From assembly GCF_026802175.1 (NCBI RefSeq), contig NZ_CP113797.1:2705026-2769025 (forward strand): a stretch of DNA of 64,000 nucleotides, read 5' to 3'. Positions within the stretch are counted from its first letter, which is position 1, and each line of letters opens with the position of its first letter. Shown piece by piece: positions 16,338 to 59,724 of the stretch. Source of the stretch: Thermocoleostomius sinensis A174 (GTDB lineage Bacteria > Cyanobacteriota > Cyanobacteriia > Elainellales > Elainellaceae). Made by a program: the position numbers and the translations under genes. Under the pieces are notes generated by a model. The model had not been told where the DNA came from. It saw only the letters and a list, made by a program, of their open reading frames with translations, and did not search any database.

Positions 16338-16358
16338 GAAACGATGCAAAAAATCTAT

Positions 16359-16404
16359 GAAAAACAAAACCCCTGGGCGTCTGTCCGTGTTTCGACTCCA
16401 GGGG
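16359..16404 (-). terminator. Rho-independent terminator downstream of bioD
   Basis: On the minus strand a CCCCTGG/CCAGGGG stem with a 21-base loop is followed by TTTTGTTTTT. It lies 135 bases beyond the bioD stop and is in the right orientation. Confidence 0.65.
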
Positions 16405-16538
16405 CTTGCTTTGTTTCGTTCCTCCTCACACATCCTTAATTTACGGCCCTTATCTGAGAGATAAATCTGATTTGGGACACTTCATAGAGTGGCACGATGT
16501 TGTATTTGCAAGAGGGGCTATGTTGCATGAATTCATGC

Positions 16539-17295: not shown

Positions 17296-17373
<78 letters not shown>

Positions 17374-57645: not shown

Positions 57646-58179
57646 ATGGCTACCATCGTGATTCGTACGGGCGGGCAAACAGGGGTCGATCGGGCTGCGC
57701 TTGATGTCGCAGTCACATTGGGAATTCCCTATTTGGGTTGGTGTCCCCAGGGAGGTTGGGCGGAAGACTATCCTCAGCCGCCGGGAGTGCTGGCAATTTA
57801 TCCTCAGCTAGTAGCAACGCCATCGGCAAACCCCCAACAGCGCACAACCTGGAATGTTCGCGATAGCCACGCCACTCTAATTTTGATCTCTGAATCACCT
57901 TTTGGTTCAATGAGTTCTGATGCAACGAGTGAGCAGGCGTTGCGATCGTCTCCGGGTACGTGGTTTACCTACCGCACAGCCAGCCTTGTGTTTTTGCGGC
58001 CGTGTTTGGTACTCGTCCTTACCGCTGCTGCTGTCGATTCTTGCAAACAATGGCAGCAGGATGTCCGAAACAGGTTGAAACTAAAGACGTTGATTTTAAA
58101 TATTGCTGGCCCCCGCGAGTCTGAACAACCAGGTATCTACCGACAAGCGCAACAGTTTTTGTCTCACGTTTTGGCATAA
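57646..58179 (+). CDS. YpsA/SLOG-type putative molybdenum carrier
   Basis: A 177-residue protein of the putative molybdenum carrier family (SLOG/YpsA-like Rossmann fold). The nucleotide-binding motif is IRTGGQTGVDRAALDVA, with YLGWCPQGGWAEDY, TTWNVRDSHATLILIS and LNIAGPRESEQPGIYRQA. SLOG proteins bind nucleotide-derived ligands; the molybdenum role rests on a distant structural resemblance. Residues 85-125 are unusual for the family: the GT-rich segment is replaced by Ser/Phe-rich text. It follows the SpoIID gene at 14 bases and is probably cotranscribed. Confidence 0.8.
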   Translation: MATIVIRTGGQTGVDRAALDVAVTLGIPYLGWCPQGGWAEDYPQPPGVLAIYPQLVATPSANPQQRTTWNVRDSHATLILISESPFGSMSSDATSEQALRSSPGTWFTYRTASLVFLRPCLVLVLTAAAVDSCKQWQQDVRNRLKLKTLILNIAGPRESEQPGIYRQAQQFLSHVLA

Positions 58180-58271
58180 CGCATTGGAGCATCCGTTTCC
58201 AACTAAGAACCTACTGTTCCTACGGCATCACTTTTAAAATTATTCACATTTAAAACTATCCATAAAACTAT

Positions 58272-58325
58272 CCGCCCTCACTGGGCTGTAATCTGGAACT
58301 CCATCATACAGGAAAGTAAGGGCGG
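58272..58325. other. long imperfect hairpin
   Basis: CCGCCCTCACT and AGTAAGGGCGG pair over 11 positions with one mismatch, enclosing 32 bases. No T-run follows on either strand, so it is not a standard terminator. Confidence 0.55.
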
Positions 58326-58342
58326 CCTAGGGGGTCTTCAAT

Positions 58343-58474
58343 TTGGAACTTGACTGCCGGGAGGAACTCTATTACCCCAGCAACGATTCAGGAGCTATAC
58401 TCCGACGAGTTAACTCGGCTATTAGAGAACAGCCCCGGCGCACAGCCAGCATACTCCAAACCGACGACCCATGA
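58343..58474 (+). CDS. possible 43-residue small protein
   Basis: From TTG 58343 the frame reads a hydrophilic peptide with protein-like composition (ELDCREELYYPS, AILRRVNSAIREQPRRTASI, ending QTDDP). AGGGGG lies 8 bases upstream. It could equally be chance, or the end of a decayed gene. I do not recognise it. Confidence 0.25.
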   Translation: MELDCREELYYPSNDSGAILRRVNSAIREQPRRTASILQTDDP

Positions 58475-58493
58475 ATTTACTACTATCTTGCAT
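58422..58493 (-). CDS. possible 23-residue small protein with an ideal ribosome site
   Basis: ATG 58493 is preceded, 8 bases from GGAGG, by AAGGAGGTGAT (58508-58498), a full-length complement of the 16S rRNA tail. The peptide runs MQDSSKFMGRRFG then VCWLCAGAVL and stops with TAA TAG in sequence. Such a perfect site is rare in this window. It could be a leader peptide or chance. Confidence 0.25.
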   Translation of the reverse strand: MQDSSKFMGRRFGVCWLCAGAVL

Positions 58494-58656
58494 GGGCATC
58501 ACCTCCTTAAATCCTAAACGGCAGTTATCTGTAGAGTTTCAACCTAAAGCACCTCAGAATCTAAGACTCGGAAGCTATTGGGTTGCAGGTGCTCTTGCAC
58601 CGTACTGCCAGCATAACATGGAAATTTAAATTGGTGGAGGAATGAACCGGAATTGC

Positions 58657-59724
58657 TCAGGAGCAACGGGATGTTCTCGGATTTTTAGTTCGCGCTAGGG
58701 CAGACTTCAGTAATGCTCTGACATCGATCACTAAAGCTAGGTGGTTTTGAGCCGTGAGGCAACAGCCATACACATAGGGTGGAGGGACGATCGCATCTCC
58801 TAGCGAATGAACGACTAGTTCCTGTTCACCCAAAACCTGATCAACTTGTAGCCCAATCCAGCCAGTATCGGTTTGCAAAATTGCAATGTGAGACCCTGAT
58901 GAAGGTAGTGCCCTAGCTGGGTCTGAATCAGCTAGCAAGCTAGACAAAGTTTGTACCACGATGGGAATGACCTCTTGCCTGTGTTGCCACTGCCAGATAA
59001 ATTGATCTGCTATTTCCACCTGATTTGGAGCAAATACAATTTGTTCGATCGCATCTATTGGCACCGCATAGATCGTTTTCTGACTTTCACATAGTAACAG
59101 CTTCAAGCTCTCTAGAAACGGACTCTGAATTACTGTCAACCGATTTCTAGCTATCCCTAAAAGTTGCTGCTGTGAAGTCAAGGAATAGCACTGCTGGCGG
59201 TGTATATATTGCAAAGTCTCTGTAATGCTGGTCAATTCCATTGCTTCATCTATGGCAATCTGAATAGAGGTTTTCAGGTTGCGACAGTCAATCTCTGATT
59301 CAGTCTCAAATGTGTGAGTATTCAGGTTTATATTTTGTCCCCTTGCTGAAGATATTTGAGTTTTAGAATTATCTTCTATAGGTTGCAGCAATAACCACTC
59401 GATTGCATCCAATAACTCGTTGAGTGTCTGTTGATGATTTTGCAAGTGATGTACTAATGTTTGTAGAACAGAGTACGAATGATAGTGGTGATTAATTTGT
59501 CGAGTTTGATTCTCCAATAGTTCACAAGCTAAGTGATCGAGTTGCGCTAGCTGACCGGATCGAACTGCAATCACTCCGTCGGTGATTGGCTGATCTGAAT
59601 CGTCAGCCTTCTGGAAGGCGGTATTAGCTGATTCCATTGTGGCAGAACTTCGCGAGGAAGGGGCTATTGCGATCGCAATGGCTGCTTCTGTAAACTGCCA
59701 CCATTTTTGCCACCATTTTTTCAT
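58657..59724 (-). CDS. CheA-like protein reduced to a C-terminal CheW/P5 domain
   Basis: A 355-residue soluble protein. The C-terminal 150 residues are CheW-like: LLLCESQKTIYAVPIDAIEQIV, WQWQHRQEVIPIVVQTLSSLL, IAILQTDTGWIGLQVDQVLGEQELVVHSLG and VYGCCLTAQNHLALVIDVRALL, closer to the P5 domain of CheA than to free CheW. No Hpt motif or ATPase (N, G1, F, G2 boxes) is present. The N-terminal 200 residues are helical and unlike a kinase. It is 11 bases downstream of the MCP gene, so the two are in one operon. It may link the receptor to a kinase encoded elsewhere. Confidence 0.75.
   Translation of the reverse strand: MKKWWQKWWQFTEAAIAIAIAPSSRSSATMESANTAFQKADDSDQPITDGVIAVRSGQLAQLDHLACELLENQTRQINHHYHSYSVLQTLVHHLQNHQQTLNELLDAIEWLLLQPIEDNSKTQISSARGQNINLNTHTFETESEIDCRNLKTSIQIAIDEAMELTSITETLQYIHRQQCYSLTSQQQLLGIARNRLTVIQSPFLESLKLLLCESQKTIYAVPIDAIEQIVFAPNQVEIADQFIWQWQHRQEVIPIVVQTLSSLLADSDPARALPSSGSHIAILQTDTGWIGLQVDQVLGEQELVVHSLGDAIVPPPYVYGCCLTAQNHLALVIDVRALLKSALARTKNPRTSRCS

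Follow-up and report, generated by a model that had tools for sequence, protein, structure and literature searches.

A widely conserved RNA element with a 23-codon reading frame and a covarying helix in Cyanobacteriia

Dual-function bacterial RNAs with known regulatory targets include SgrS and SR1. Among cyanobacterial RNAs, Yfr1 is described as a 54-57 nt RNA with a single-stranded motif (PMC4734099). The same report describes ncl0160 of Synechocystis sp. PCC 6803 as an sRNA of wide distribution whose peptide of 23-25 amino acids is probably translated; its frame starts with ATG or GTG, mostly ATG, always after a possible ribosome site, and its 83 homologs end in 47 TAA, 34 TAG and 2 TGA codons (PMC4734099). 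The element analyzed here very probably belongs to the family reported as ncl0160, an assignment made from the published description of that family. The name ncl0160 was not found beyond PMC4734099 in the literature searched. A term search of PMC5126843 did not return it, and none of the titles or abstract starts listed in the literature searches described the element.

A conserved element between two convergent genes

The window, by which we mean the whole 64 kb stretch of DNA analyzed, carries the element in 477 bases (58180-58656) between two convergent genes. A cpYpsA-family gene on the plus strand ends at 58179 and a CheW-family gene on the minus strand ends at 58657. Since both neighbours converge on the region, no neighbouring gene could use the element as a leader here, as an earlier reading of the sequence without database searches (the sequence-only reading) had recognized. 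No known Rfam RNA was identified: the region had no Rfam 15 match at the gathering score or up to E 5, and 18 related loci gave no match. Elsewhere in the window, a Cyano-1 RNA was matched at 16358-16435 on the minus strand (46.6 bits, gathering score 41), and a tRNA lies at 17296-17369 on the plus strand.

The 477-base DNA matched 73 of 98 genomes, its own included, at E<=0.001. A pattern over the ribosome site and first codons matched at least 117 stretches in the genome collection, and all 80 titles shown were cyanobacterial. These 117 pattern matches, 24 loci from DNA or protein-level searches and the window's own locus constitute the 142 loci analyzed, which have 136 distinct cores; a few of the loci share a contig. 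Sixty-eight sequences less than 90% alike were drawn from these loci for structure analysis. A covariance search, the check that the sequence-only reading had suggested, gave matches in 292 of the 388 genomes of Cyanobacteriia searched, and in 138 of their 160 genera; its model was built from the 68-sequence set, mostly pattern-chosen loci, and may favour typical members. Conservation in relatives is found with the DNA (73 of 98 genomes) and with the model (292 of 388). The same reading had also considered a mobile fragment, an idea that found no support: just two of the 292 genomes with a match list more than one, and the plasmid and phage collections gave none. The two exceptions, G012 (C112 and C329) and G278, have two model matches each. 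In a phylum-wide draw of 117 genomes, all 44 matches fell in Cyanobacteriia; among those listed of the 73 unmatched genomes, 5 belong to Cyanobacteriia and 15 lie outside, and 53 are unlisted. The small genomes of one family (f2), which we would guess from that size to be picocyanobacteria, are mostly without a match, with one weak match at E 4.7e-5.

In relatives, the element commonly has a photosystem II reaction-centre gene upstream and is followed by genes for a pterin-4a-carbinolamine dehydratase and for a porin-like protein with an SLH domain, with family matches, in the only loci tested, to Photo_RC (L014), Pterin_4a (L014 and L019) and SLH (L014). In our reading, the upstream gene is psbD. 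Within the 1.6 kb upstream of the element, a psbD C-terminal motif was found in 85 of the 142 loci, a figure inflated because contigs break in psbD. Where the upstream sequence available reaches 1.6 kb or more, in 56 loci, only 17 have the motif. The motif was present in 49 of 58 contigs with less than 600 nt upstream, so that most of these breaks are located at psbD; beside the element, many assemblies seem to be interrupted by psbD repeats (L014 and other related loci). The many matches near contig ends had raised the idea of an rRNA leader or 16S fragment, which was rejected when 18 related loci showed no rRNA or other Rfam match. Of 124 loci, 74 have the pterin dehydratase cluster downstream, in the same orientation as the element, and the other 50 lack it within the downstream sequence examined; in the element's own genome, the single pterin dehydratase family match lies ~2.56 Mb away. 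Elsewhere in relatives, the element does not depend on any one neighbour.

The minus-strand unit and the opposing frames

On the minus strand, a promoter-like extended -10 motif, a strong ribosome site, a 23-codon open reading frame (ORF), a long helix between the ORF and the 3' part, and a terminator hairpin together make up a full predicted transcription unit. The predicted transcript of ~345 nt (58258-58603, minus), with its start placed from the -10 motif and its end from the terminator, has limits conserved in the alignment, where conserved DNA spans the extended -10 motif to the hairpin and U-run, both on the minus strand. The minus strand folded better than its own shuffles (z -3.38, 0 of 100 shuffles as good); the plus strand folded no better than shuffles (z -1.23, 13 of 100 as good).

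The promoter-like motif TGTTATGCT (58610-58618, minus) fits the looser pattern TGNTANNNT, which 60 of the 67 relatives left after dereplication have upstream (mean of shuffled sequences 9.4, maximum 20). A stricter pattern, TRTGNTANNNT, is present in 53 of the 67 (shuffled mean 1.5, maximum 6), and the window's own -10 has the looser form only. A general promoter scan flagged no minus-strand promoter at the element. The terminator hairpin, at 58272-58325 (minus) and followed by ATAGTTTTAT, has a 3' arm of the GCGG(A/G)TA type in 134 of the 142 loci (two of the other eight are cut short) and compensatory changes in its stem. The element carries its own terminator and a computationally predicted promoter of its own.

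Three hairpins pointed out in the sequence-only reading are all present and are parts of one RNA. The 54-base hairpin (58272-58325) is the terminator just described. The 12-bp palindrome CGAGTTAACTCG (58406-58417) is a variable hairpin past the stop codon, in a stretch that is unconserved in relatives. The 5-bp GGTGC/GCACC hairpin (GGTGC-AAGA-GCACC, 58588-58601, minus) is a 5' leader hairpin, with a similar GGTG..CACC seen by eye in several aligned relatives.

The ribosome site AAGGAGGTGAT (58498-58508, minus), described earlier as the longest anti-16S match of the window, is the sole 11-base match to the anti-16S string AAAGGAGGTGATCC on both strands of the 64 kb window, and there is none longer. 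Its GGAGG ends 8 bases ahead of the ATG at 58493, and a CCGTTTAGG box lies directly upstream (58513-58521, minus), with a loose version in 50 of the 68 sequences. The 23-codon ORF MQDSSKFMGRRFGVCWLCAGAVL (58493-58422, minus) has two Cys, as had been noted, and ends in TAA.

Two plus-strand ORFs overlap this frame, one of 43 codons with a TTG start (58343-58474) and one of 55 codons (58350-58517). The former exists, as stated in the sequence-only reading, which had found its text protein-like, but neither ORF is kept in relatives. We rejected both as genes: when relatives were read in frame from the overlap, the frame of the 43-codon ORF gave at least 40 amino acids in 15 of 68 and that of the 55-codon ORF in 14 of 68, and the two frames held no start-to-stop ORF in 45 of 68 and 41 of 68, respectively. 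At fixed offsets, a rough measure because indels shift the frame, the plus-strand ORFs were open in 6 of 68 (43 codons), 7 of 68 (55 codons) and 6 of 67 (58471-58629). The 55-aa peptide matched no Pfam family. One antisense frame is open across the 66 nt overlap in 58 of 68 sequences; this explains the protein-level matches found in 81 of 98 genomes at E<=1, many of which contain internal stops.

The 23-codon frame and the long helix

Across the 142 loci, 138 starts are ATG and 4 GTG, with constancy at the ribosome site, start and codons 3-5 being partly a product of how the loci were chosen, since the search pattern fixed these positions for most loci. Stops are 72 TAA, 68 TAG and 2 TGA, and the ORF has 23 codons in 136 loci, 24 in 4 and 17 in 2, so that 140 of 142 loci have 23 or 24 codons. 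Over a stretch of 66 nt, 140 of the 142 loci have the ORF frame open; the other two sense frames are open in 29 and 0. A fairer set consists of 29 diverged loci found by the covariance model, just 7 of which conform to the pattern used in the search. All 29 have GGAGG followed by a start codon, with a spacing of 8 in 25. Their ORFs have 23 codons in 12 loci, 24 in 9 (23 or 24 in 21 of 29), 17 in 4 and 16, 22, 27 and 28 in one each; the stops are 14 TAA, 11 TAG and 4 TGA, and an LCAGAVL-like C-terminal end is retained in many. The ribosome site, start, lengths and stops of these diverged loci speak for probable translation of the ORF.

A coding signal in the substitution pattern was looked for in the 64 sequences of the 68-sequence set whose ORF has exactly 23 codons without irregularity, and was not found: changes in codons 7-23 scored -4.85, and when columns were permuted, 53 of 200 runs did as well (mean -5.18, sd 0.50). 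The amino-acid constancy in these codons can be explained by RNA pairing. Because substitutions in the ORF are no more conservative than in permuted controls, it may be less the peptide that counts than the process of translating it.

The second half of the ORF pairs with the 3' part of the RNA in a long interrupted helix (58332-58470, minus) made of four segments: 58470-58466/58336-58332, 58462-58455/58347-58340, 58450-58444/58354-58348 and 58439-58433/58362-58356. In this helix, 96.4% of cells are paired (90.4 in shuffled controls), 14 of the 26 pairs changed on both sides (7.8 shuffled), and 128 cells changed on both sides versus 30.9 shuffled (sd 8.2). Slid versions reached at most 55.2% paired, a comparison in which the helix is at an advantage, having been derived from the same alignment. 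The long helix is strongly supported by covariation.

A second pairing, of GCCCA (58497-58493) with UGGGU (58471-58467), forms a start-codon hairpin (58467-58497, minus) that competes with the long helix for the same GGGU; 99.4% of its cells are paired, and its helix is nearly invariant, so that covariation hardly tests it. In computed ensembles, the mean probability of the start codon being unpaired was 0.13 for the 5' fragment, 0.149 when the RNA was extended to the stop codon and 0.497 for the full RNA. With the 3' part shuffled it was 0.169, and the native value exceeded the shuffled one in 63 of 68 sequences. Accessibility of the ribosome site was unchanged in these ensembles (0.57 and 0.56). 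The computed values suggest that the 5' part alone would hide the start codon and that the native 3' half would expose it.

Several lineages depart from this layout. The ORF ends after 17 codons in L172 and L180 (also in L045 and L102); L172 and L180 have lost the last six residues, yet the equivalent RNA stretch is still recognisable, as if the RNA had been kept and the peptide end lost. L183, L184 and L189 have the ribosome site and first codons, and the usual 3' half and helix are absent; another hairpin comes next in L183 and L184.

Interpretation and comparison with known RNAs

The minus-strand small-ORF gene or dual-function RNA proposed in the sequence-only reading is supported by class-wide conservation, the kept frame and the covarying structure. 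The terminator stem, too, is an observed feature, not one predicted by folding of a single sequence. We favour, with moderate confidence, a free-standing dual-function RNA gene of ~345 nt that combines a structured RNA with a 23-codon message, in which the 3' half would open the start codon and ribosomes would free the 3' arm. By itself, the 5' part would fold a hairpin over the start codon. Once transcribed, the 3' half would pair with GGGUC of the ORF and the next segments, disrupting the hairpin and freeing the start codon, a switch predicted by computation. A ribosome crossing the ORF would then open the long helix and release its 3' strand, the arm from GUUCCUCCCGGCAG to GACCC. Translation would thereby most likely control the availability of this arm, either for acting on a second RNA or a protein or for being bound by one; what role the freed arm or the peptide may play is our guess. 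The lineages without the usual 3' half (L183, L184, L189), those with short ORFs and the unchanged accessibility of the ribosome site run counter to this explanation. More tentatively, the short ORF could be a ribosome sensor and not a peptide gene, and the class-wide RNA could report the state of translation to a target through its freed 3' arm.

It is rather unlikely, in our judgement, that the element is a message for a small functional protein of 23 amino acids, with an RNA structure that merely protects or tunes the message. The strong ribosome site, the fixed length of 23-24 codons, the three interchanging stops and the LCAGAVL-like end in many diverged loci are what such a gene would show, and ncl0160 was judged likely translated (PMC4734099). 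However, the score of codons 7-23, matched by 53 of 200 permutations, gives no sign of amino-acid selection beyond RNA pairing, and L172 and L180 lack the last six residues with the equivalent RNA stretch present. A non-coding sRNA, with an ORF that arose by chance and a ribosome site that serves another purpose, would agree with the many compensatory changes in the helix and with amino-acid changes that are not conservative; we hold it to be improbable in view of the fixed distance from the ribosome site, the kept start, the interchanging stops and length differences of mostly whole codons.

That 74 of 124 loci have a gene of the dehydratase family downstream in the same orientation could point to a leader peptide or attenuator of the pterin dehydratase gene, left here as a remnant after rearrangement. 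This would call for a constant linkage, which is missing in 50 of 124 loci and in the element's own genome; the terminator arm is present in 134 of 142 loci regardless of what comes next, no antiterminator was seen by eye, and we consider such an origin very unlikely. Least credible to us is a type I toxin message: the ORF is very short and its start codon is hidden in the computed fold of the 5' part, but no membrane-spanning peptide was seen by eye, and a single match in all but two of 292 genomes, with none in the plasmid and phage collections, argues against it.

The element is nearly single-copy and occurs in roughly three in four of the Cyanobacteriia genomes covered; with a translated-looking ORF and no Rfam match, it may well be a core regulator that has been overlooked. 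Both its covarying helix and its computed start-codon switch make direct tests by point mutation possible.

Like SgrS and SR1, with which we claim no homology, the element joins a short ORF and a structured part in a single RNA; the regulatory targets of those two are known, and any target of the element is hypothetical. It resembles Yfr1 and Yfr2 (named in PMC4734099) in being a free-standing RNA conserved across cyanobacteria, and differs from Yfr1 in being longer and in having an ORF and a long helix. The closest likeness is to ncl0160 as described in PMC4734099: wide cyanobacterial conservation (292 of 388 class genomes here), an ORF past a ribosome site, of 23-25 codons there and of 23 or 24 codons in 140 of 142 loci here, starts that are mostly ATG with a few GTG (138 and 4 here), and the use of three stops with TGA rare (TAA/TAG/TGA 47/34/2 there and 72/68/2 here). 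In the present analysis, we worked out the helix with its covariation, the hairpin at the start codon that competes with it, and the loose association with psbD and the dehydratase gene.
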